From positions 1 to 37,076 of the forward strand of contig NZ_CAMFHB010000054.1 of NCBI RefSeq assembly GCF_945952055.1: a DNA stretch of 37,076 nucleotides, written 5' to 3'. The notes under the pieces are model-generated. The model was given only the letters and a program-made list of their open reading frames with translations. It was not told the DNA's origin and searched no databases. This document shows, piece after piece, positions 187 through 10,555 of this stretch. The position numbers and the translations under genes were made by a program. Position 1 is the first letter of the stretch. Each line of letters begins with the position of its first letter. This stretch comes from an uncultured Alsobacter sp. (GTDB lineage: Bacteria > Pseudomonadota > Alphaproteobacteria > Rhizobiales > Beijerinckiaceae).

Positions 187-1008
187 TCAGGCCGCCCCGG
201 TCTGGACGGTGGAGGGGACGCCATAGCCGACCGCGCCACAATAACCGCACGTCCGCGCGGCCTCGTCCGCAGCAGCCTGCAGCACGGCGTCGGGAGATTC
301 GTCGCGCAGCAGCCCGACGAGCACCCTGGCGATGAAACTGTCGCCGGCTCCCAATGTGTCGACGACGGTTGCTGGAGCCGCCGTGATCTCATGCCATCCG
401 TCGTTCCCCGACAGGACCGCGCCGTCCGCGCCCCGGGTCGCGAGAACCCAACGCGCCCCGGCCGCATGCATGGCGCCGACGACCCCGCGCAACTCCGCCG
501 TCGAGGATTCGGTCGCAGAGATCGACGCGAGCCAGCAATGCGCCGCAACGCGCGCGCGATGGTCGGGCTCGCGGCGTGTGGAAAAATCGTAGGACAGGCG
601 CGTGGCCAACGAGATGGCGCCGAGGCATCCGTCGAGCCCGGCGTGCTGGTAGACGTGAGCGGCGTCATGACGGGCGATGAAGTCCAGGTCTCCACGGCTA
701 GGCTCGAATCGCGACACGCCCAGATCGTAGGAAACGAACTGGCGGTCGCCGCCCACGTGCCCGATCACGCAATGGGCTGTCCTGCCCTCAACCACGCGAA
801 GATGGCTTGCATCGACGCCTTCGGTGTCGAGCACGTGCCGGATCAGGCGGCCGGGGGCATCGTCGCCGACCGCGCCCACGTAGGCGGCAGCGGCGCCGCA
901 GCGCCGCGCGAACACCGAGACGTTGAAGCAGTTCCCGCCGGGGTACATCAGCCCGTCACTGAGGTAGCAATCGACGTCGTTGTCGCCCACGCCAACGATG
1001 CGCACCAT
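187..1008 (-). CDS. frlD: PfkB-family sugar kinase, fructoselysine 6-kinase-like (FrlD)
   Basis: This 273-residue ribokinase-fold kinase is expected to phosphorylate the 6-hydroxyl of an imported sugar-amine (Amadori) compound in the cytoplasm. The N-terminus has GDN (8-10), VDxY (12-15) and GGN (24-26). GDNxVDxY followed by PGGNxxNV is the pattern of FrlD proteins, unlike most PfkB sugar kinases. The C-terminal catalytic GAGD motif is at 220-223. I chose the ATG at 1008 because GGAGAG lies just upstream and the protein then starts where E. coli FrlD does; the GTG at 1050 lies inside the operator. The gene diverges from an FrlB-like deglycase, its normal pathway partner. The exact substrate (fructosyl-lysine, -asparagine, -glutamine or another amine) cannot be read from sequence. 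Confidence 0.85.
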   Translation of the reverse strand: MVRIVGVGDNDVDCYLSDGLMYPGGNCFNVSVFARRCGAAAAYVGAVGDDAPGRLIRHVLDTEGVDASHLRVVEGRTAHCVIGHVGGDRQFVSYDLGVSRFEPSRGDLDFIARHDAAHVYQHAGLDGCLGAISLATRLSYDFSTRREPDHRARVAAHCWLASISATESSTAELRGVVGAMHAAGARWVLATRGADGAVLSGNDGWHEITAAPATVVDTLGAGDSFIARVLVGLLRDESPDAVLQAAADEAARTCGYCGAVGYGVPSTVQTGAA

Positions 1009-1030
1009 GCCGAACTCTCCGATTGACAAC

Positions 1031-1050
1031 GTGTGAGAACGTTCGCACAC
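1031..1050. promoter_or_regulatory. LacI-family operator palindrome
   Basis: The 20-bp stretch is an inverted repeat with 18 of 20 positions symmetric around a central CG. Its core is TGTGAGAACGTTCGCACA (1032-1049). An even-length palindrome centred on CG and built around AACGTT is the classic form of LacI/GalR operators. The only local-repressor gene of that family is at 8133-9278, at the end of the same gene series, and is the likely binder. The palindrome and its position between two divergent catabolic genes are seen directly; the pairing with this LacI is inferred. Confidence 0.75.
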
Positions 1051-1070
1051 TGCCCTCGCATCGTCAACGA

Positions 1071-1087
1071 GCGGGCAAAAAGCCCGC
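1071..1087 (+). other. Hairpin in the frlB leader
   Basis: A perfect 6-bp GC stem (GCGGGC with GCCCGC) encloses a five-A loop, ending 22 bp before the frlB start codon. In a transcript starting near 1055 it would lie in the 5' untranslated region. There is no U-run after it on the plus strand, so it is not a standard terminator. It could stabilise the leader or modulate translation. On the opposite strand the loop is five T inside the stem, which also does not make a terminator. Confidence 0.4.
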
Positions 1088-1109
1088 GCCGTACACCCGA
1101 GAGACGAGA

Positions 1110-2111
1110 ATGGGCGCTCACACCAAGGCCGATGTCGCCGCAGCGCTGGACGCCATTGCCGAAAGGCCGCTCTCGCATGTCTTCCTGGTCGCCTGTGGCG
1201 GGTCCTTCTCGATCATGCTGGCCGGAAAATATCTCATGGACCGGACCGCGCCCGACCTGCCGTGCGACGCGCTCAATGCGGACGAGTTCATCTGCCGTTC
1301 GCCCGCGCGCCTCGGTCCGCGGGCGCTGGTGATCCTGTGCTCGCAGACCGGCACGACCAAGGAGACCGTCGCCGCTGCGCGCTTCGCCCGTGAAAAGGGT
1401 GCCGTCACCATCGCCATGTCGCTCGACCTGGCGTCGCCGCTGGCCTCTGCTTCGGATCACCGGGTGGCATATCGGGCGCACTACACCACCGGCGAAAGCA
1501 TTGACGCGTCCGACAGCAACTATGCCGTCCTTTATGCGCTGCTCGTGGGGCTGCTCGCCCAACGGGGGCAGGCCGACCTGCGCCCCGCGCTGGCGACGAG
1601 CCTTGCCGGCCTGCAGCCCACCATCGACAAGGCCAAGGAGCGCCTCTGCGCGCCGATCGCCGCCTATGCCGAGAGTTTCGCCACTGCACCCGCCGTCTAT
1701 ACGCTGGCAGCTGGGCCAAATTCCGGGGCAGCGTATTCATTCGCGATCTGCGTCCTCATGGAAATGCAGTGGATCAACTCGCAAGCCGTCCACGCCGACG
1801 AGTTCTTTCACGGGCCGTTCGAGGTGGTTGACAAGTCGGCTCGCTTCATCGCGCTGCTCGGGACCGGCCCGACCAGGAGGCTGGAAGAGCGAGCGCGAGA
1901 CTTCCTGATGCGGTACGGCGATCCGGGCAACATCCTGGTTCTCGATGCGGCCGACCTCGATCTCGACGCCCTGGCGGACCCGTTCCGGGAGCTCTTCGTG
2001 CCGTTGATCTTCTTCGACGTCCTGTGGGTGTTCGCGTACCGCCTGGCGGCGGTGCGGCAGAAGCCGATGCTCGAAGCCCGGCGCTACATGAAGAAAATCA
2101 CGAACTACTGA
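1110..2111 (+). CDS. frlB: SIS-domain sugar-amine-6-phosphate deglycase, FrlB-like
   Basis: This 333-residue protein has two sugar isomerase (SIS) domains and matches E. coli FrlB (340 residues) in length and layout. FrlB-type enzymes cleave a phosphorylated Amadori compound into glucose 6-phosphate and the free amine or amino acid. Visible landmarks are CGGS at 29-32 in the first SIS domain, the SQTGTTKET phosphate-binding loop, and EFFHGPFE in the second domain. Glu231 and His234 of that motif match the EFxHGPxE motif of FrlB/FraB. I chose ATG 1110 (preceded by GAGAGACGAGA) over GTG 1023 because upstream residues have no counterpart in the family and would overlap the operator. It leads the plus-strand catabolic operon. 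Other SIS deglycases (glucoselysine-type) are the main alternative. Confidence 0.85.
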   Translation: MGAHTKADVAAALDAIAERPLSHVFLVACGGSFSIMLAGKYLMDRTAPDLPCDALNADEFICRSPARLGPRALVILCSQTGTTKETVAAARFAREKGAVTIAMSLDLASPLASASDHRVAYRAHYTTGESIDASDSNYAVLYALLVGLLAQRGQADLRPALATSLAGLQPTIDKAKERLCAPIAAYAESFATAPAVYTLAAGPNSGAAYSFAICVLMEMQWINSQAVHADEFFHGPFEVVDKSARFIALLGTGPTRRLEERARDFLMRYGDPGNILVLDAADLDLDALADPFRELFVPLIFFDVLWVFAYRLAAVRQKPMLEARRYMKKITNY

Positions 2112-2173
2112 GCAGAAGTAGCCGCAGTACAGGCAGCGCATAGACGCCCGCGATCAAGACAAACACCAGAGAG

Positions 2174-2180
2174 AAGGAGG
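2174..2180 (+). promoter_or_regulatory. Strong Shine-Dalgarno of dctP
   Basis: AAGGAGG lies 5 nt before the ATG at 2186. It decides between that ATG and the out-of-frame ATG at 2181, which sits directly against it. A strong site suits a periplasmic binding protein that must be made in excess of its membrane partners. Confidence 0.7.
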
Positions 2181-2185
2181 ATGGC

Positions 2186-3193
2186 ATGCCCTTTTCCAAG
2201 ATCACGCGCCGCGCGCTGGCCGGCGCAGCGGTTTCGGTGGCCCTCGCAGCCATGTCCCTGGGCGCGCAGGCCCAGACCCCGACCGCGATCCGGATCGCTT
2301 CAGTCAATCCGCCGACGGCCGAGTCCCTCGTCTTCGTGCAGAAGGTCGCGGACCGGGTCACCGAGCGCACCCAGGGCCGCGTGACCTTCCGGCTTTTCCC
2401 GTCCGGTCAGCTCGGCACGACCAACGACTCCATCGAGCAGGCCAGCCAGGGCCAGCCCGTGATCACCTACACGTCGGCCTCCTTCATGGCCGGCTTCGGC
2501 GTCCCCGAACTGTCCGTCATCGAAGGGCCCTTCATCGTCGCCAACAACGAGGAGGGTGAACGCCTGGCGTTCTCGCCGCTCCTGCAGGGCTGGTACGACC
2601 AACTCGCCGCCAAGTCCGGCATCCGCGTCATCGCCCTCAACTGGTTCGACGGCCCCCGCCACATGATCGGCAATGCCGGTTACGGCAAGCCCGAAAGCCT
2701 GAAGGGCGTTCGGATGCGCGTCCCGCCGGTGGAGACGTGGATCAAGACCTTCGAGCCCCTCGGCGTCGTTGCGACCACGGTAGAGGCCGCGGAGGTCTAT
2801 TCGGCGCTGTCGCAGGGCGTCGTGGCCGCCGCCGAGTCGCCGCTGACGGGTTTGCGGGCGAGCAAGTGGTTCGAGGTGTCCAAGCACATCACGCTGACCG
2901 GCCATTTCAACCTGTTCACCGGCTGGGTGATGAGCGAGGCGACCTTCAAGGGGCTGTCGGCCGGCGACCGCGCCATCCTCCTCGAGGAGTTCCGCAAGGG
3001 TGGCCAGGAGCTGTCGAAGGTCTCCGCGGAACGCGGTGCCGCCATTCGCAAGGAATTCGAAGCCGCCGGCGTGACATTCCACGAGGCGGACATCCCGGCC
3101 TACCGCAAGATGACCGCCAGCTTCTACACGAGCTTCCCGAAGTGGCCCGCCGGGCTCCACGAGAAGGTCCTGGCGGCGGCCGCCGGCAAGTAG
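2186..3193 (+). CDS. dctP: TRAP transporter periplasmic solute-binding protein
   Basis: This 335-residue DctP-family receptor binds the substrate in the periplasm and delivers it to the membrane pair encoded next. Residues 1-29 form a Sec signal peptide with an AQA cleavage site. The mature protein carries the family's conserved arginine in the RVPP segment (Arg178), which pairs with a substrate carboxylate in characterised members. This argues for a carboxylate-bearing substrate, such as a sugar-amino-acid conjugate, rather than a plain sugar or amine. It lies 74 bp after frlB and 54 bp before dctQ, on the same strand. Pairing of a TRAP importer with FrlB/FrlD-like enzymes is unusual, since the known fructoselysine and fructose-asparagine systems use other transporter types. 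Confidence 0.92.
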   Translation: MPFSKITRRALAGAAVSVALAAMSLGAQAQTPTAIRIASVNPPTAESLVFVQKVADRVTERTQGRVTFRLFPSGQLGTTNDSIEQASQGQPVITYTSASFMAGFGVPELSVIEGPFIVANNEEGERLAFSPLLQGWYDQLAAKSGIRVIALNWFDGPRHMIGNAGYGKPESLKGVRMRVPPVETWIKTFEPLGVVATTVEAAEVYSALSQGVVAAAESPLTGLRASKWFEVSKHITLTGHFNLFTGWVMSEATFKGLSAGDRAILLEEFRKGGQELSKVSAERGAAIRKEFEAAGVTFHEADIPAYRKMTASFYTSFPKWPAGLHEKVLAAAAGK

Positions 3194-3247
3194 ACGTTGC
3201 TGCTGCGGTGACCACGCCCTGGGGCGGCGTGACGAAAGGGGGGCGGC

Positions 3248-3733
3248 GTGAGGGTGCTTGACGCAATCCTGTCGATCATCGGAACCGTCGTTCCGGTGGT
3301 TCTGCTGGCTCTCGTGATCATCGTGGTCACCGCCAACATCATCGCCCGAAACGTCTTCGGGCTCCCGTTCCATGCGGCCCACGACATCGCCATGCTGGCC
3401 TTCGCCGGTGTCGTGTGGTTTGGGCTGGTCGGCGCCGCGCTCGACGGGCAGTTCTTCGGCGTCGACTATTTCGTCGATCGACTGCCCGGCAGGCTGCCGC
3501 TGTACTGCCGGATCGCGTCGCGCGCGGTCGTCGTCATCTGCAGCGCGGCGATCATCTACTCCGCGTGGATGCAGATCGGAACCGCGCGCTTCTCGCGGTT
3601 CCTGTCGCTCGGCTGGCCCAAATGGATCGTCTCGGCCGGCCTGCTCGTCTCCATGGTTCTCGTCATCGTGGTGCAGGTCCGCGAGATGGTTCGGTTGTAC
3701 CGCGGTGAGGCTGTCGGGAGGACGACGTCGTGA
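3248..3733 (+). CDS. dctQ: TRAP transporter small membrane subunit
   Basis: This 161-residue hydrophobic protein has four predicted membrane segments (roughly residues 6-28, 44-65, 86-106 and 124-147) and the WFGLVGAALDG-type centre of DctQ proteins. It forms the transport complex with DctM in the inner membrane. The start is a GTG at 3248 preceded by an A/G-rich AAAGGGGGG; a second GTG two codons later is possible. Its TGA overlaps the GTG start of dctM (GTGA), so the two are translationally coupled. Confidence 0.92.
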   Translation: MRVLDAILSIIGTVVPVVLLALVIIVVTANIIARNVFGLPFHAAHDIAMLAFAGVVWFGLVGAALDGQFFGVDYFVDRLPGRLPLYCRIASRAVVVICSAAIIYSAWMQIGTARFSRFLSLGWPKWIVSAGLLVSMVLVIVVQVREMVRLYRGEAVGRTTS

Positions 3734-5004
3734 TCCTTGCGTCCATCGTCTTCTTCCTCCTCCTGGTCTTCGGCGTCCCCGTGGCGTTCGTGATGCTCGG
3801 CGCATCCGTGTTCTACTTCGTCGAGAACCCGATGATGGCCAGCATCGTGGCGCAGCGCATGTCGTCGTCGCTGGAATCCTTTCCGCTGCTCGCGGTGCCT
3901 TTCTTCGTCTTCGCCGGGGCGGCAATGGCCCGCGGCGGGATCGCCGACCGGCTGTATGGCCTCGCCGACGCAATGGTGGGCCACTGGCGCGGCGGCCTGG
4001 CCCAGGTCGGCGTGCTGAATTCGCTCTTCATCGGCGCCATGTCGGGGTCGGCCAATGCCGATGCGGCCATCGATGCGCGCTCGCTGGTCCCGATCATGCG
4101 GCGCCAGGGATACTCCAACGGCTTCGGCTCCGCGATCAGCGTGGTCTCCGGGGTCATAGCGCCGCTGTTGCCGCCCAGCATCGGCCTGATCATCTACGGA
4201 CTGCTGACCGACACGTCGATCGGCCGGCTGTTTATCGGCGGCATCGTTCCGGCGGTGCTGTGCACGCTCGTGCTGATGGCGACGGTCCGCCACCTCGCCA
4301 TCCGCCGCAACTACGCATCCTCGCGCACGACCCGGATGGCGGGGCCGGAGATCGCGACCCGCTTCCGCGCCGCCCTGTGGGCACTGGCCATGCCGGTCAT
4401 GCTCATCGTGGGGCTGCGTGGCGGCTGGTTCACGCCGACGGAACTCGGCGCCATGGCCGCCCTGTATGCGCTCGCGGTCGGGCTCTTCATCTACCGCGGC
4501 TTTGGCGCCACCGACATCTACGACCTGCTGCGGGAGGCGGCGTTCACCACCGCCAGTGTCATGTTCATCGTCGCAGCCGCGGGCGTCCTCGGCATCATTC
4601 TCGCGCTGGAGCAGGTCCCCCAGCGCATCGTCGAGGCGCTCCTGACGCTCTCCGACAACAAGTACGTCGTGCTCTCCATCATCATGCTGGCGCTGCTCGT
4701 GCTGGGCACCATCCTGGAGGGGATCGCCCTCCTCGTCATTCTCGCGCCGCTGCTTCTCCAGGTGGCCACCAAGATCGGGATCGATCCGGTCCACTTCGGG
4801 ATCCTGATCGTCTTCAACACCACGATCGCGTCGATCAGTCCGCCCGTCGGGACCGTCATCTACACCGTCTGCTCGATTACTAAATGCACGCTCGAGGAAC
4901 TGACCGTCGAAATGCTCCCGTTCATGCTGACGCTCACCGTCCTCCTCTTCATCCTGACGTTCTGCCCGCCGCTCGTGACCTTCCTTCCCAACCTGATGTT
5001 CTAG
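3730..5004 (+). CDS. dctM: TRAP transporter large permease subunit
   Basis: This 424-residue polytopic membrane protein is the sodium-driven translocation subunit of a TRAP transporter. It has about a dozen hydrophobic segments and family motifs such as GSANADAAID and the SISPPVGTVIY stretch near the C-terminus. Its GTG start overlaps the dctQ stop by four bases, with GGAGG just upstream. It ends three bases before the next gene, so it is surely cotranscribed with the enzyme genes. The sequence gives no direct substrate information. Confidence 0.95.
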   Translation: MILASIVFFLLLVFGVPVAFVMLGASVFYFVENPMMASIVAQRMSSSLESFPLLAVPFFVFAGAAMARGGIADRLYGLADAMVGHWRGGLAQVGVLNSLFIGAMSGSANADAAIDARSLVPIMRRQGYSNGFGSAISVVSGVIAPLLPPSIGLIIYGLLTDTSIGRLFIGGIVPAVLCTLVLMATVRHLAIRRNYASSRTTRMAGPEIATRFRAALWALAMPVMLIVGLRGGWFTPTELGAMAALYALAVGLFIYRGFGATDIYDLLREAAFTTASVMFIVAAAGVLGIILALEQVPQRIVEALLTLSDNKYVVLSIIMLALLVLGTILEGIALLVILAPLLLQVATKIGIDPVHFGILIVFNTTIASISPPVGTVIYTVCSITKCTLEELTVEMLPFMLTLTVLLFILTFCPPLVTFLPNLMF

Positions 5005-5007
5005 ATC

Positions 5008-5955
5008 ATGCGCTTCTATGACGCCGAAGCCGTTCATGCGCTGCTGGCCTATCCGGAGCTGATCGAAGCCCTGCGCCAGGCCCATCGCCAGGCGGGGCCC
5101 GACGCCGCGCACATGGTGCGAGACGATCCCGCCGGCGGCGACAACAGGTTCGTCGTGCTGGTGGGCTGGCAGGGCGGATCCGTCATCGCGGTGAAGATGG
5201 TCGGCGTGTTCCCCGACAACCTCGCCCTCACGCCCCCGCAGCCCTCCGTCCAGGGGCTGGTCGCGGTCTTCGATGCCGCAACCGGAGCGCCGGTGCTGGC
5301 GGCGGACGGCGCCGCCATGACCTTCCGCAAGACCGCGGCTGACTCCGCGCTCGGCGCCAGCCTACTGGCCCGGCCGGACGCGCGCGTCCTCCTCATTGTC
5401 GGAGCGGGCGGACTCGCGCCCCACGTTCTCGAGGCCCATCGCGCCGCGCGCCCGTCGATCGACCGGGTGCTGGTGTGGAACAGGACGCATCACCGGGCCG
5501 AGGCGCTGGCGCGCGCGCAGGCAGGGCGAGGATTCACGATCCGCGCCGTGTCCAACCTCGACGAAGCCGTGGCGGAGGCCGACGTGATCTCCTGTGTCAC
5601 CATGTCGGACGCGCCGCTGGTGAGGGGTGCGCTGCTCAAGCCCGGCGCCCATCTGGATCTCGTCGGCGCGTACCTTCCGACCATGCGCGAGGCCGACGAC
5701 GACGCCATGGCACGGGGCTCGATCTTCGTCGACACGCGCTCGGGCATGGAAGGGGCGGGCGACCTGGCCCAACCGGTCCAGAGCGGCCGCATCGACTGGT
5801 CGAACGTGCGGGCCGACCTCTTCGACCTGTGTGGGGGACGCCATCCGGGCCGCACGCATGCTGACGAGATCACGGTCTTCAAGAACGTCGGCGGCGGCCA
5901 TCTCGACCTCTTCACGGCGCAGTGGCTGAGAGCCGTCGCGGGGCGCGCCCCATGA
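5008..5955 (+). CDS. Ornithine cyclodeaminase / mu-crystallin family protein
   Basis: This 315-residue NAD(P)-binding enzyme belongs to the OCD/mu-crystallin family, whose members include ornithine cyclodeaminase, ketimine and pyrroline-2-carboxylate reductases, and alanine or opine-type dehydrogenases. The family RKTAAxSALGA segment lies before a Rossmann motif (GAGGLAPHV), followed by VWNRTHHRAEAL. The true ornithine cyclodeaminases are usually longer (about 350), so a reductase or dehydrogenase acting on the amine released by the deglycase is more likely. It starts 4 bp after dctM and overlaps the next start codon (ATGA), so both are coupled. The substrate is not identifiable from sequence. 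Confidence 0.85.
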   Translation: MRFYDAEAVHALLAYPELIEALRQAHRQAGPDAAHMVRDDPAGGDNRFVVLVGWQGGSVIAVKMVGVFPDNLALTPPQPSVQGLVAVFDAATGAPVLAADGAAMTFRKTAADSALGASLLARPDARVLLIVGAGGLAPHVLEAHRAARPSIDRVLVWNRTHHRAEALARAQAGRGFTIRAVSNLDEAVAEADVISCVTMSDAPLVRGALLKPGAHLDLVGAYLPTMREADDDAMARGSIFVDTRSGMEGAGDLAQPVQSGRIDWSNVRADLFDLCGGRHPGRTHADEITVFKNVGGGHLDLFTAQWLRAVAGRAP

Positions 5956-8000
5956 GCGATCGGTCGGACCCGCTGCTCACGCCGTTCAGGCTGAAGCACC
6001 TGACGCTGAAGAACCGCTTCATGTCGACGGCGCATGAGCCGGGCTATGGCGAAGACGGCATGCCGAAGGCTCGCTATCGCCTTTATCACGCAGAGAAGGC
6101 CAGAGGCGGGATTGCGCTGACGATGACAGCCGGGTCCGCCGTCGTGTCGCGCGACAGCCCCGCCGTCTTCGGCAACCTGCACCTCTACGACGACGCCATC
6201 GTGCCGTGGCTGCGCGAGATGGCGGACGCCTGCCACGAGCATGACTGCAAGGTGATGATCCAGATCACTCACCTGGGTCGCCGCACCGCCTGGAACACCG
6301 GCGACTGGTTGCCCGTTCTCGCGCCGTCCCCGGTGCGCGAGCCCGCGCATCGGGCCTTTCCCAAGACGGCCGAGCACTGGGATCTCGACCGCATCGTCGC
6401 CGACTACGCGAGCGCGGCGCAGCGGTGCCAGGCGGCGGGCCTCGACGGGTTGGAGTTCGAGGCCTACGGCCATCTGATGGACCAGTTCTGGTCGCCCGCC
6501 ACCAACCGGCGCGACGACGAGTATGGCGGCTCGCTCGACGACCGTCTTCGCTTCAGCTGGCGCGTCATCGACGCAGTGCGCGCCGCGGTGGGACCGGACT
6601 TCGTCGTCGGGATCCGCATGACGGCCGACGAGGCGCTGAAGGACGGGCTGTCGCGCGCCGACGGTGTCGAGATCGCAAGGCGCATGGCCGCCAGCGGCAA
6701 GGTGGATTTCCTCAACATCATTCGGGGCTCGGTCGAGAGCGACGTGTCGCTCGCCAAAGTCATCCCGCTGCACGGCACGCCGGCGTCCCCGCATCTCGAC
6801 TTCGCGGGCGAGGTTCGCTCGGCCGCGCGGTTTCCCGTCTTCCACGCAGCGCGCATCAACGATGTCGCCACCGCGCGCCACGCCATCGCTTCGGGCAAGC
6901 TGGACATGGTCGGCATGACTCGAGCCCACATCGCCGATCCGCATATCGCCCGGAAGGTCGCGGCCGGCCACGAGCACCATGTCCGCCCCTGCGTCGGCGC
7001 AAGCTATTGCGTCGACCGGGGCGGCGAGGGCGGCGAGACGCTGTGCATCCACAACGCCGCCACAAGCCGCGAAGCGACGATGCCGCACGTCATCGCGCGA
7101 AGCGAGGGGCCCCTGCGCAGGGTGCTCGTGGTCGGCGCGGGCCCGGCCGGGTTGGAGGCCGCGCGCGTCGCCGCGGAGCGCGGACACCACGTCACCGTGT
7201 GCGAGGCCGCCGGGAAGGCCGGCGGGCAACTCAGGCTTGCGACGCAGAACCCGCGCCGCCGCGAACTGGTCGGCATCATCGACTGGCGGCTAGCCGAACT
7301 GCAGCGCCTCGGCGTCGAACTGCGCTACGACACCTGGATCGAGGCCGGCGACGTCGATCCGTTCAAACCCGACGTCGTCATCGTCGCCACGGGCGGCGTG
7401 CCGCAGTCGCCGGCGCTCGAAGCGGGCGACGACCTCGTCGTCTCGAGCTGGGACGTGCTGGCGGGCACCGTGCAGATCGCCCAGAACGTCCTCGTCTACG
7501 ACGACAACGGCGCTCACCCCGGGATGTCCGCGGCCGAGATGATCGCAAAGGCCGGCTCTCGCCTCGAGATCGTGACCCCCGAACGCAACTTCGCCCCCGA
7601 CATCGGACCCTTCAACCACGTCCCCTACATGCAGGCCTTCCGGCGACACGGGGCGCAGCTGACGATCACCACGCGCCTCACATCCGTCCGACGTGACGGA
7701 AACGCCCTCGTCGCCACGCTCTCGTCCGACTACGCGCCGGAGATCCGGGAAGAGCGACGCGTCGACCAGGTTGTCGTCGAACACGGAACGGCACCGATGG
7801 ACGATCTCTATCTCGCCCTGCGCCCCCGCTCCATGAACCGCGGGGAGGTCGACTACGAAGCCCTGACGGCCGGGCGTCCGCCGTTTCCGGACCGCAATCC
7901 CGATGGCGACTTCGTCCTGATCCGCATTGGCGACGCCATCCAGTCGCGCAACGTGCACGCTGCGATCTACGACGGACTTCGGTACGGTCTGCTGCTGTAG
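5952..8000 (+). CDS. Old-yellow-enzyme/FAD fusion oxidoreductase, N-methylproline demethylase-like
   Basis: This 682-residue enzyme joins an N-terminal FMN TIM barrel (about 1-340) to a C-terminal FAD/NAD(P) region (GAGPAG after about residue 395). This is the layout of trimethylamine dehydrogenase, histamine dehydrogenase and stachydrine/N-methylproline demethylases. SPATNRRDDEYGGS is a classic barrel motif. The cluster segment reads Cys347, Ala350, Cys353, Cys365, so one of four canonical [4Fe-4S] cysteines is alanine. The start at 5952 overlaps the preceding stop, which beats the earlier in-frame start at 5922. In this operon it probably demethylates or oxidises the amine released from the sugar conjugate; that role is inferred. 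Confidence 0.85.
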   Translation: MSDRSDPLLTPFRLKHLTLKNRFMSTAHEPGYGEDGMPKARYRLYHAEKARGGIALTMTAGSAVVSRDSPAVFGNLHLYDDAIVPWLREMADACHEHDCKVMIQITHLGRRTAWNTGDWLPVLAPSPVREPAHRAFPKTAEHWDLDRIVADYASAAQRCQAAGLDGLEFEAYGHLMDQFWSPATNRRDDEYGGSLDDRLRFSWRVIDAVRAAVGPDFVVGIRMTADEALKDGLSRADGVEIARRMAASGKVDFLNIIRGSVESDVSLAKVIPLHGTPASPHLDFAGEVRSAARFPVFHAARINDVATARHAIASGKLDMVGMTRAHIADPHIARKVAAGHEHHVRPCVGASYCVDRGGEGGETLCIHNAATSREATMPHVIARSEGPLRRVLVVGAGPAGLEAARVAAERGHHVTVCEAAGKAGGQLRLATQNPRRRELVGIIDWRLAELQRLGVELRYDTWIEAGDVDPFKPDVVIVATGGVPQSPALEAGDDLVVSSWDVLAGTVQIAQNVLVYDDNGAHPGMSAAEMIAKAGSRLEIVTPERNFAPDIGPFNHVPYMQAFRRHGAQLTITTRLTSVRRDGNALVATLSSDYAPEIREERRVDQVVVEHGTAPMDDLYLALRPRSMNRGEVDYEALTAGRPPFPDRNPDGDFVLIRIGDAIQSRNVHAAIYDGLRYGLLL

Positions 8001-8132
8001 GCGCCCTGTGACGCACTGCGGGTTCGGACGGTTCACGGCTGCTGCGAACGGTCGGGTTCCACCTTTTCGCGGCATGCTATAGCCAACCGCGCATGCGAGC
8101 GTGTAACCACGCCTTCCGACTGCGGTAGACCC
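8001..8132 (+). promoter_or_regulatory. Likely lacI promoter region
   Basis: These 132 bp precede the LacI-family gene. A TATAGC at 8078-8083 could be a -10 box, with a weak TTCCAC 15 bp upstream. Two GCATGC palindromes (8072-8077 and 8091-8096) flank it. At 8041-8058 there is a degenerate relative of the 1031-1050 operator with a good left half (GCTGCGAAC) and a poor right half, which might serve autoregulation. No terminator is visible for the upstream operon. Confidence 0.3.
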
Positions 8133-9278
8133 ATGGCTCCCCGACGCCCGGACAAGATCACCATCACCGACGTGGCGCGGCACGCTGGCGTCAGCACGGC
8201 GACGGCCGGCCGCGTGCTTGGCGGCTATGGCTACACCAGCACCGAGGTTCGCGACCGGGTTCGCGCCAGTGCGGAGGCGATGGGCTACAGGCCCAATCTG
8301 CTCGCCCGCAGCTTGATCACCGGGCGCACCAAGACGATCGGCGTGGTCGCGGGCGACATCCAGAGCCCGTTCTACGCCAGCATGCTGCGCGGCATTTCGG
8401 ACGTTGCCCGGACCGAAGGCTTCGGGGTGATCGTGACGAACACCGACGAGCGGTCCGACCGGGAGATCGAGGCGGTGCAACTGCTTCTCGAGAAGCAGGT
8501 GGACGGGCTGATCGTGGCACCCTCCGACCTCCTCAACTCGCCCCATCTCCATGCGGCGATCGAAGGGGGCTGCCCGGTGGTGCAGGTCGACCGCATCGTG
8601 GCCGGCCTGCCGGCGGACTCGGTCACCGTCGACAACCGCGGCGCGGCGCGCGACGCCGTCGCGCACCTGATCGCGGCCGGTCATCGTCGCATCGGCATCG
8701 TGGCCGAGCTGGAGCGATCTGCCTACGGCAGCGTCGCGGCTTTCGTCAGGGCGGTCGAGGACGACAGGGTCGAGGCAACGGCGCTGTTCCCGAGCTGGCA
8801 GCGCCTCTACGGCTACCTGGATGCGCATCGCAGCGCCGGCCTCACCATCGAGCCGGCCTTCATCGCGCGCGTCGGCGAGTATTCCGTCGCGGCCGGAAAG
8901 GCCGAAACGCTGAAGCTCCTGGACCGGCAGCAGCGCGTGAGCGCTCTCTTCACCGCCGACGGACTGATGTCGGCCGCCGCCATGGACGCCATCACCACGC
9001 TCGAGATGGCGATCCCGACCGACGTGTCCCTGGTCTGCTTCGACGATCTCGACTGGATGCGGTTCGCCAAGCCGGGGATTTCGGCGGTGGTGCAGCCGCT
9101 TCTGGAACTCGGCGAAACAGCCGCCAGCACCGTGCTGTCGCGGATCCAGGGCGACACGTCCGCCTCGCGCCACGTCACCCTGCTGCCGCAGCTCGCCCTG
9201 CGTGGATCGGTGCAAGGTCTCCCGGGCTCCCTCGCGTCGGCTCGGGACGACGGCCCCTCGCCCCCGACACGGCCGTAA
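8133..9278 (+). CDS. LacI-family transcriptional regulator
   Basis: This 381-residue protein has an N-terminal LacI helix-turn-helix (ITDVARHAGVSTATAGRVL at about 11-29) with the following hinge, then a periplasmic-binding-like effector domain. It most likely represses the divergent frlD/frlB promoter through the palindrome at 1031-1050 and is released by the substrate or a phosphorylated intermediate. It is somewhat longer than usual (about 340) because of a C-terminal tail rich in Ser, Pro and Asp. Being encoded last in the plus-strand series with its own 132-bp upstream gap, it may be transcribed separately. Confidence 0.92.
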   Translation: MAPRRPDKITITDVARHAGVSTATAGRVLGGYGYTSTEVRDRVRASAEAMGYRPNLLARSLITGRTKTIGVVAGDIQSPFYASMLRGISDVARTEGFGVIVTNTDERSDREIEAVQLLLEKQVDGLIVAPSDLLNSPHLHAAIEGGCPVVQVDRIVAGLPADSVTVDNRGAARDAVAHLIAAGHRRIGIVAELERSAYGSVAAFVRAVEDDRVEATALFPSWQRLYGYLDAHRSAGLTIEPAFIARVGEYSVAAGKAETLKLLDRQQRVSALFTADGLMSAAAMDAITTLEMAIPTDVSLVCFDDLDWMRFAKPGISAVVQPLLELGETAASTVLSRIQGDTSASRHVTLLPQLALRGSVQGLPGSLASARDDGPSPPTRP

Positions 9279-9308
9279 TCGGCCGGTGGCCCGCGGACGG
9301 GAGGAGGG

Positions 9309-9401
9309 ATGACGACGCGCCCCCCGACGAACGCGCACGACCGCATCTTTGCGCTGCCCGGAGGCGCATCGCAGCATCCTGTTGCGCGCGGTGACGACTA
9401 G
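9309..9401 (+). CDS. Possible 30-residue small ORF upstream of the peptidase
   Basis: An ATG at 9309 is preceded by GGAGG (9300-9304) with a 4-nt gap and opens a 30-codon frame ending in TAG at 9399-9401, 29 bp before the peptidase start. It could be a short leader peptide or chance in high-GC sequence. There is no recognisable motif. I list it only because its ribosome-binding site is as good as those of the real genes. Confidence 0.2.
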   Translation: MTTRPPTNAHDRIFALPGGASQHPVARGDD

Positions 9402-9430
9402 CATGGGACCCGTCCACCGGAGGCCCTCCC

Positions 9431-10555
9431 ATGACCCGCGAAGAGATCCTGGCGCAGCTCGTCGCCTTCCCGTCCGTGGTCGGCCGGCCCAACGGTGACA
9501 TCGTGGACTGGATCCGGTCCTGGCTGGCCGGTCATGGCGTCATCGCCCATGTCCTGCCGGGTCCCGAGGGCGACCGGGCGAATCTGTTCGCGACCATCGG
9601 CGTGCCGGACAGGCCTGGCCTCGTCCTCTCCGGCCACATGGACGTCGTGCCGGCCGCGGAACCGGACTGGGCGACCGATCCCTTCCGACTGCACGCCGAC
9701 GGCGACCGCCTGCTCGGGCGGGGCACGAGCGACATGAAGGGCTTTCTGGCCGCCGTGCTCGCGGCGGTGCCGCGCCTCGCGGGGCAGGACCTCGCCCGGC
9801 CCGTGCATCTGGCCTTCTCCTATGACGAGGAGGCCGGGTGCCGCGGCGTCCCGCATCTCATCGCCAGGCTCGGCGAGCTGTGCGCCCCGCCGGCCTGCGC
9901 CGTGATCGGCGAGCCGAGTGGCCTGCGGGCGATCCTGGCGCACAAGGGAAAGGCCGCGGCGCGGATCACGGTGCAGGGGCGGTCCGGGCACTCGTCGCGC
10001 CCCGATCTCGGACTGAACGCCATCCACGGCATGGCGAGCGTGCTCTCGGCCGCCGTGGCGGCCGCCGAAGCCGCCACGCGCGGCCCGCACCATCCCTCCT
10101 TCGCGCCGCCCTATTCGACCATCCAGGTCGGAACGCTCACGGGCGGCCACGCCCTCAACGTCATCCCGGCGCTCTGCACGGCCGAGATCGAGGCCCGCGC
10201 CATCGCCGGCCAGTCCGCCGCCGCGCTGCTGGCGCCCGTCCGCGACGCCCTCGCGGCGCTCGACCGGCAGGGCTTTGCGACCGCCTGGGAGCCGCTCTCG
10301 GACTATCCCGCGCTCGCCTTGCCCCGCAGCGCGCCCATCGCCACGCTCCTGGCGGAGGTCGCGGGCCACGAGCCTCTCGCCGCCGTGAGCTACGGGACCG
10401 AGGCGGGGCTCTACCAGGCGGCGGGGATCGACGCGATCGTCTGCGGGCCGGGGGACATCGCGCGGGCCCACAAGGCCAACGAGTTCATCACGCGCGGGGA
10501 GCTCGCGGACTGCGAGGACATGATCGTCGCCCTGGCGTCCCGGTTCGCCGCCTGA
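9431..10555 (+). CDS. ArgE/DapE/ACY1-family zinc amidohydrolase
   Basis: This 374-residue M20-family deacylase resembles acetylornithine deacetylase in length and motifs. The di-zinc site is complete: His69 in SGHMDVVP, Asp101 in GTSDMKG, Glu133 (general base) and Glu134 in YDEEAG, Glu161 in GEPSG and His347 near the C-terminus. The dimerisation segment carries GRSGHSSRP. It should remove an acyl group from an N-acylated amino acid or polyamine in the cytoplasm. GGAGG sits 7 bp before the ATG. It lies between the LacI gene and a convergent FAD oxidoreductase. With two acetyltransferases further on, an acylated-amine intermediate is plausible, but housekeeping arginine synthesis cannot be excluded. 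Confidence 0.88.
   Translation: MTREEILAQLVAFPSVVGRPNGDIVDWIRSWLAGHGVIAHVLPGPEGDRANLFATIGVPDRPGLVLSGHMDVVPAAEPDWATDPFRLHADGDRLLGRGTSDMKGFLAAVLAAVPRLAGQDLARPVHLAFSYDEEAGCRGVPHLIARLGELCAPPACAVIGEPSGLRAILAHKGKAAARITVQGRSGHSSRPDLGLNAIHGMASVLSAAVAAAEAATRGPHHPSFAPPYSTIQVGTLTGGHALNVIPALCTAEIEARAIAGQSAAALLAPVRDALAALDRQGFATAWEPLSDYPALALPRSAPIATLLAEVAGHEPLAAVSYGTEAGLYQAAGIDAIVCGPGDIARAHKANEFITRGELADCEDMIVALASRFAA

Follow-up and report, generated by a model that had tools for sequence, protein, structure and literature searches.

Gene content of the locus

The window analysed in this study is the whole of contig C54 (37,076 bp) of the 6.6-Mb genome, assembled in 106 contigs, of a soil-type alphaproteobacterium; positions 187–9278 hold a locus of the fructosamine (Amadori compound) type. 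Genes of the window were identified with Pfam and NCBIfam family models. Designations beginning with L, C and G refer to loci, contigs and genomes of this study, respectively. The gene of an FrlD-like PfkB sugar kinase (187–1008, minus strand, PF00294; probable ATG at 1008 in an open reading frame spanning 187–1050) is divergent from the others. On the plus strand lie the genes of an FrlB-like SIS deglycase (1110–2111, PF01380; probable ATG at 1110, frame open from 1023), the TRAP solute-binding protein DctP (2186–3193, PF03480), the small permease DctQ (3248–3733, PF04290), the large permease DctM (3730–5004, PF06808), an OCD/mu-crystallin family protein, probably a delta1-piperideine-2-carboxylate (P2C) reductase (5008–5955, PF02423, PRK06141), and an OYE/FAD flavoenzyme from the wider clade of the N-methylproline demethylase HpbA (5952–8000, PF00724 and PF07992). 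These six genes form a tight series. Spacers of 74 and 54 bases separate the deglycase, dctP and dctQ genes, dctQ and dctM overlap by 4 bases, the OCD gene follows dctM after 3 bases, and the OCD and OYE genes overlap by the 4 bases ATGA at 5952–5955, in which the former stops and the latter starts. The gene of a LacI-family regulator (8133–9278, plus strand, PF00356) begins 132 bases downstream of the OYE gene, and a promoter and terminator scan of positions 7900–9600 found no element. A LacI-type operator, TGTGAGAACGTTCGCACA, lies at 1032–1049 between the divergent kinase and deglycase genes.

The sequence-only reading of this DNA had described an FrlD-like kinase, an FrlB-like deglycase, a full TRAP transporter, an OCD gene and a LacI regulator here. 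Family models confirmed each of them, and the motifs quoted for the kinase and the deglycase are present in the translations. The gene set is not a chance assembly and constitutes a real, conserved and regulated fructosamine system, since the same order of kinase, deglycase, TRAP and OCD genes recurs in six other loci and the operator is common to 73 of the 81 loci considered below.

Related loci

A search for the deglycase in 297 genomes of the same order (threshold 1e-20) gave matches in 31 genomes, the window's own included. Five other deglycases from this set, all from other families, are 56–62% identical to that of the window. None of the 11 same-family genomes listed contained a deglycase at this threshold, and a class-wide search of 385 genomes at 1e-50 returned only the window's own protein. 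Genome contigs were then scanned with a profile made from an alignment of six deglycases, which yielded 172 stretches with 108 relatives; the best 80 of the 108 were retained. Locus counts given here refer to these 80 loci and the window (81 in total); all of them have the deglycase because it defined the set, and contig ends truncate several of them. Neighbouring genes were counted by protein searches with fixed identity thresholds.

The PfkB kinase stands beside the SIS deglycase in 79 loci. Further genes encode LacI (73 loci), OCD (60), the binding protein of a polar-amino-acid ABC importer (43), GntR (36), an FrlC-like epimerase (21), a second ABC binding protein (21), DctP (20), DctM (19), a glycerol-3-phosphate-dehydrogenase-like FAD protein (19) and OYE (15). 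The OCD gene accompanies DctM in all 19 cases and the first ABC binding protein in 42 of 43. Six other loci have the window's gene order (L064, L066, L082, L089, L090 and L093). Fructosamine-type catabolism fed by a TRAP transporter and including a ketimine-type reductase, as originally proposed, is supported. TRAP does not mark a different system: within a single locus family the importer is mainly either TRAP (19 loci) or the polar-amino-acid ABC transporter (43 loci).

Several variants were seen among the relatives. Loci of a sister type, mostly from Mesorhizobium (L062, L063, L068–L070, L073 and others), have the same deglycase and kinase with a different ABC binding protein; the latter occurs in 21 loci, with a DAO-type oxidase in every one and OCD in just seven. 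These loci probably serve another amine. A second frl-type SIS gene with its own upstream palindrome, TGTGAGATCGATCTCACA, is found in L060, L079, L108 and L121. In L139 and L140 (a Ti plasmid and the opine plasmid pAoF64/95) a kinase/SIS pair adjoins an ABC importer, the SIS protein being 41–42% identical to the window deglycase.

The operator and presumed LacI regulation

The palindrome TGTGAGAACGTTCGCACA is exact at 1032–1049. With at most two mismatches it occurs in 73 of the 81 loci, and the same 1.56 Mb read backwards gave no matches. Within the window this is the sole site up to three mismatches (two readings of one palindrome) against 0.04 expected; two of 100 window shuffles likewise gave two operator readings. 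Elsewhere in the window's genome there was no site with at most two mismatches and one with three, while the backwards control also had one at up to three.

Gene starts near the operator sites belong to the deglycase (68), the kinase (54), LacI (37), the ABC binding protein (34), the FAD protein (18), DctP (6), the second SIS gene (4), FrlC (3) and the second ABC protein (3), and one site had none listed; a site between divergent genes was counted for both of them. All 35 genomes chosen from those behind the loci contain an operator site. Of the 63 places found in them, 61 are those already in the loci, as matched by count per genome and not by each coordinate. Of the two extra places, one precedes an FrlC-like gene (39% identical) in the L090 genome, on a contig different from that of the locus, and the second, with two mismatches, belongs to the L107 genome. 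The backwards control matched in three of the 35 genomes (G682, G694 and G691). Judging by the co-occurrence of LacI and the operator, the window LacI protein presumably binds the site at 1032–1049. In the GntR-bearing loci L095 and L118, a further palindrome such as TTATAATACGTATTATAA is located upstream of the deglycase gene and is perhaps a GntR site.

Kinase, deglycase and reductase

The best NCBIfam models are fructoselysine 6-kinase for the kinase (148 bits, cut-off 247) and fructoselysine-6-phosphate deglycase for the SIS protein (110 bits, cut-off 430), so that both proteins miss the equivalog cut-offs of E. coli FrlD and FrlB. The nearest solved sequence to the SIS protein is 3eua, a putative fructose-aminoacid-6-phosphate deglycase (257 bits), which we take to be FrlB of Bacillus subtilis. 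Residues E237 and H253, 16 positions apart (numbering of the 352-residue reading 1053–2111), are invariant in the six aligned deglycases; presumably they correspond to the catalytic Glu/His pair of FraB and GlmS.

For the window OCD protein the best model is PRK06141 (P2C/pyrroline-2-carboxylate (Pyr2C) reductase) with 313.2 bits against a cut-off of 322. Among five relatives, L066 exceeds this cut-off (331.6), and L089 (313), L118 (306.6), L105 (286.5) and L233 (304.7) are below it. The Asp of the GGD motif is important for cyclodeaminase activity. At this position 58 of the 60 OCD proteins have Tyr (Tyr222 in the window), one has Trp and one a gap. Asp is found there in 1u7h, the Ti plasmid cyclodeaminase and archaeal alanine dehydrogenase, and is absent from 6t3e (a Pyr2C reductase), mu-crystallin and 7rbp. 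The OCD protein is most likely a P2C reductase and not a cyclodeaminase, the latter being disfavoured by the change of Asp to Tyr.

Genes of the lysine/pipecolate route near the loci

Five route genes were scored: L-pipecolate oxidase (AmaA), delta1-piperideine-6-carboxylate (P6C) dehydrogenase, an aminotransferase, HglS and YdiJ. They are present in seven, five, four, four and three of the 81 loci, respectively. NCBIfam scores of these recurring neighbours are above the cut-off for HglS (740 bits, cut-off 550) and P6C dehydrogenase (825, 730) and below it for the AmaA-like protein (464, 600) and a partial YdiJ (513, 1350), as well as for the FrlC-like protein (115, 305). Fructoselysine 3-epimerase was the top NCBIfam model for each of three FrlC-like epimerases tested. 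Four HglS and five P6C dehydrogenase genes were observed beside the 80 loci, whereas random placement predicts 0.07 and 0.30, respectively; this expectation treats loci as independent and uses copy numbers from 21 genomes all carrying the locus.

Five relatives have three to five of the pipecolate/aminoadipate route genes beside the locus. In L233 (Rhizobiales metagenome-assembled genome UBA3584, also the source of L085) 20 kb contain LacI, AmaA, OCD, TRAP, YdiJ, HglS, P6C dehydrogenase, aminotransferase, kinase, operator, deglycase and FrlC; the kinase, aminotransferase, P6C dehydrogenase, HglS and YdiJ genes are on one strand downstream of the operator. L232 (Aureimonas psammosilenae, genome of L094) has GntR, deglycase, kinase, LacI, ABC and OCD together with all five route genes. 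In L233 and L232, HglS scores 736 and 727 bits, and P6C dehydrogenase 803 and 809, again over the cut-offs. L231 (Pseudotabrizicola alkalilacus, genome of L119) includes AmaA, P6C dehydrogenase, aminotransferase, kinase, TRAP, LacI and OCD. L105 (Paracoccus rhizosphaerae) contains aminotransferase, P6C dehydrogenase, HglS, AmaA, TRAP, OCD and FrlC, so the combination of TRAP, OCD and the FrlC-like epimerase is seen in two of the five (L233 and L105). L065 (Pelagibacterium lacus) has aminotransferase, P6C dehydrogenase, HglS and FrlC, with OCD and an importer not found in the stretch.

Because pipecolate and aminoadipate genes are located inside the clusters of relatives, the amine freed by the deglycase is most likely lysine. 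The earlier suggestion of an amine that is methylated or cyclic from the start appears less likely: these genes favour plain lysine, with cyclic compounds (P2C, pipecolate) arising only later.

Presence of the route genes in whole genomes was also considered. At 1e-110 an AmaA match was found in 35 of 42 picked locus genomes and in at least 44 of the 297 genomes of the order; 31 candidates per genome were scored in the former set and five in the latter, and the 42 genomes are not a random draw, so these figures are not strictly comparable. There was no AmaA match in 14 control genomes. P6C dehydrogenase matched in 20 of 21 locus genomes searched (19 over the cut-off); hence its presence alone is little informative, while its nearness to the locus is informative. 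The HglS search also gave a match in an E. coli control genome. Protein searches with the thresholds used found no P6C-dehydrogenase-like protein in the window. The window's genome encodes P6C dehydrogenase on contig C68 (808.9 bits, cut-off 730), beside a CoA-transferase with succinate-glutarate CoA-transferase as the best model (604 bits, cut-off 750) and an adjoining acyl-CoA dehydrogenase that matches mixed models below their cut-offs, glutaryl-CoA dehydrogenase among them. From this we infer that the tail of the route in this genome leads to glutaryl-CoA.

The OYE/FAD flavoenzyme

A tree of 32 rows places the window OYE in an HpbA-type group (support 95/99), next to three proteins from genomes G069, G136 and G105 (99/98) and outside the annotated HpbA branch (100/99). 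That branch holds a second OYE of the same genome, 60% identical to the window protein (L181 on contig C14); a true HpbA is therefore probably encoded in this genome in addition to the window protein. The OYEs of the 14 other fructosamine loci fall outside the HpbA-type group, with L124 long-branched and badly placed; this topology implies that OYE joined fructosamine loci at least twice. Among the rows listed, the window OYE is 56–59% identical to proteins annotated as HpbA. A search of 199 genomes of the order gave, self excluded, ten best matches to this OYE with identities of 66–74%. Nine such relatives, taken with 17 kb each, have no kinase, deglycase or OCD gene of the window kind, and an MttB-type protein is encoded in six of ten OYE stretches (the genome's own C14 copy counted; one confirmed with Pfam).

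Trimethylamine dehydrogenase has four cluster cysteines. The second Cys of the FadH motif is missing from the window OYE and from all 31 non-FadH rows, which do not match the four-Cys pattern of a 4Fe-4S cluster; an iron-sulfur cluster in these 31 rows may be of another type or absent. A role as dienoyl-CoA reductase or trimethylamine dehydrogenase was rejected on the Cys pattern and the tree. The protein, described earlier as trimethylamine-dehydrogenase-like, is nearer to N-methylproline demethylase than to trimethylamine dehydrogenase. The demethylase label is putative and derives from kinship to the wider HpbA clade.

Among the seven loci of the window layout, two OYE-bearing ones come from genomes with no AmaA and five others, with no OYE, from genomes with AmaA (Fisher p 0.048). 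OYE as a general replacement of AmaA in all loci was not supported, as 13 of 15 genomes with OYE loci, within the set of 42, still have AmaA at 1e-110. On a plasmid of Rhizobium sp. ACO-34A (L182), an OYE gene annotated as N-methylproline demethylase is directly followed by an OCD gene whose product is 48% identical to that of the window, and no kinase or deglycase was found in 18 kb. The joint presence of OYE and OCD is thus no proof of fructosamine use; the two enzymes may act one after the other.

Proposed pathway and alternatives

On balance, the locus is probably a LacI-controlled frl-type operon for glycated lysine, an Amadori compound of the fructosyl-lysine kind, with the lysine passing to a pipecolate route. 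Substrate and reactions are predicted from the best matches of the kinase and SIS protein to fructoselysine models, of the SIS protein to 3eua, from FrlC-like proteins in 21 of 81 loci and from the lysine-route neighbours. The TRAP transporter would import glycated lysine, the kinase would phosphorylate the sugar at C6, and the SIS deglycase would free lysine and glucose 6-phosphate. Lysine would then lose its alpha-amino group and close to P2C, through an aminotransferase in some relatives and possibly OYE in the window, and the OCD protein would reduce P2C to L-pipecolate. Conversion of L-pipecolate to P6C would be carried out by AmaA in the relatives and by another enzyme or OYE in the window's genome. 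P6C dehydrogenase would lead on to 2-aminoadipate, 2-oxoadipate and glutaryl-CoA (candidate genes on C68), or, in other species, HglS and YdiJ would convert 2-oxoadipate to 2-oxoglutarate.

A number of observations weigh against this pathway. The kinase, SIS, AmaA-like and FrlC-like proteins all score under curated cut-offs, as does the window OCD, and an AmaA match over the family cut-off was obtained in none of the 42 or the 297 genomes. In 69 of the 81 loci none of the five route genes lies within the 10-kb stretch. Protein searches of the window, with the thresholds used, detected no FrlC-, AmaA- or HglS-like protein. A search of the window's genome for HglS gave no match (5 of 21 genomes have it), and the best AmaA match there reaches only 277.6 bits. 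For the alpha-deamination of lysine the pathway lacks an assigned enzyme. As an OYE/OCD pair also stands apart from kinase and deglycase in L182, these two enzymes need not belong to fructosamine use. Finally, the nearest solved deglycase, 3eua, is presumably the B. subtilis enzyme. B. subtilis FrlB is described as having alpha-glycated amino acids for its preferred substrates in the available part of PMC12632257.

This last point also speaks for a rather unlikely alternative, in which the operon, like that of B. subtilis, serves alpha-glycated amino acids broadly. Lysine would then be one amine among several, and cyclic ones such as proline would be handled by OCD and OYE through Pyr2C reduction and N-methylproline demethylation. 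PRK06141 indeed covers pyrroline- as well as piperideine-2-carboxylate, and the window OYE belongs to the wider HpbA clade. However, the catabolic genes that recur beside the relatives are those of the lysine/pipecolate route, and no proline-route gene was recognised in the gene tables, where no model search was aimed at such genes. The same placement of OYE in the clade could indicate a glycated or free N-methylated amino acid as the substrate, demethylated by OYE with OCD acting on the product, the more so as clade members neighbour MttB-type proteins, betaine transporters, carnitine genes, ETF (electron-transfer flavoprotein) genes and formaldehyde-handling genes. We consider this improbable: OYE is missing from five of the six other loci with the window layout, the OYEs of the other 14 loci are outside the HpbA clade, and none of the genes in the window operon was recognised as being of the MttB, ETF or formaldehyde kind. 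A one-step conversion of lysine or ornithine to pipecolate or proline, with OCD as a cyclodeaminase, would explain loci that have no further lysine-converting gene, and the Asp of 1u7h and the Ti plasmid enzyme, shared by archaeal alanine dehydrogenase, is not unique to cyclodeaminases. Yet with this Asp replaced in nearly all OCD proteins here, and a P2C/Pyr2C reductase as their best model, such an activity is very improbable.

The flavoenzyme is the most interesting part of the system. Candidate roles are a maker of the imine for the OCD enzyme, a stand-in for pipecolate oxidase and an N-demethylase. We tentatively raise the possibility that it is a new lysine-route amine dehydrogenase from the wider N-methylproline demethylase clade, acting as an L-pipecolate dehydrogenase in place of AmaA or else as the maker of the cyclic imine reduced by OCD. 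The former role is suggested by the mutual exclusion of OYE and AmaA in the seven loci of the window layout, and the latter, by the adjacency of OYE and OCD also in L182. Replacement of AmaA taken by itself appears unlikely, because OYE and OCD pair outside fructosamine loci too.

Comparison with known systems

The E. coli frl operon shares the kinase and deglycase logic and, with 21 of the 81 loci, an FrlC-type epimerase, and its importer type differs from the TRAP and ABC importers of these loci. The loci also differ from it by the LacI operator, OCD and lysine-route genes and scores under the curated cut-offs. B. subtilis frlBONMD-frlP has the same kinase/deglycase pair. Its uptake proceeds through the ABC importer FrlONM with FrlP or MsmX, the two species prefer epsilon- or alpha-glycated amino acids differently, and no OCD or pipecolate genes are named in the available part of that source (PMC12632257). 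In the Salmonella fra locus, too, a kinase and a deglycase accompany an importer from one of the dicarboxylate-transporter families, although FraA belongs to the Dcu family and an asparaginase is present (PMC4072780, available part). The D-lysine/pipecolate route of Pseudomonas putida includes HglS, P6C dehydrogenase, AmaA-like protein and YdiJ, as do clusters of the relatives; HglS converts 2-oxoadipate to D-2-hydroxyglutarate, and the accessible portion of PMC7286885 draws no link with glycated lysine. The reductase here is, in contrast, of the OCD family. In Phaeobacter inhibens lysine is partly degraded via L-pipecolate, and a plasmid-borne gene is a possible pipecolate oxidase (PMC5653290, in part). 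PMC8262997, in its accessible part, deals with the soc genes of Amadori-type opine users and cites fructosyl-amine oxidase work. HpbA, an N-methyl-L-proline N-demethylase, shares the wider clade with the window OYE, but the latter sits in a fructosamine operon and the C14 copy is nearer to HpbA.

In line with the sequence-only reading, to which no described pathway with this gene set was known, none was among the matches listed for Amadori compounds or fructoselysine with pipecolate, TRAP, HglS, OCD or Rhizobium. No description of a TRAP importer for an Amadori compound was found in the literature searched. The system is probably new as a combination, with glycated lysine as the probable substrate. 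If so, Rhizobiales and Rhodobacterales would own a regulon leading from glycated lysine via pipecolate to 2-oxoglutarate or glutaryl-CoA, which a few members keep in a single block, either chromosomal or plasmid-borne. It would provide a TRAP importer for an Amadori compound and a clear operator for a testable regulon, and the context would suggest functions for OCD and OYE proteins that are usually annotated by family alone.

Other features of the contig

Positions 9431–10555 encode an M20 deacetylase that scores over two NCBIfam acetylornithine deacetylase cut-offs. The region 10572–36649 appears by eye to be a block for amino acid or opine-like compounds, with three DAO-type oxidases (Pfam), a peptide-type ABC transporter, a class III aminotransferase, two aldehyde dehydrogenases, HyuA/HyuB-type proteins and two GNAT proteins. 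The M20, DAO and downstream genes were rejected as members of the fructosamine system, since searches of the 80 other loci with the thresholds used gave no match to m20, dao1 or hyuA. One block of the L182 plasmid, which has neither kinase nor deglycase, corresponds to window positions 5008–26177, with identities of 43% for OYE, 48% for OCD, 51% for the ABC ATPase, 48% for the permease, 34% for the binding protein, 37% for the class III aminotransferase and 34–38% for the aldehyde dehydrogenases. Judging from this shared block, there may be a functional link between the window's two halves. At the left edge, a hairpin followed by a T run was noted by eye at 85–111 on the plus strand; it may mark the end of a gene left of the contig edge that faces the kinase gene.

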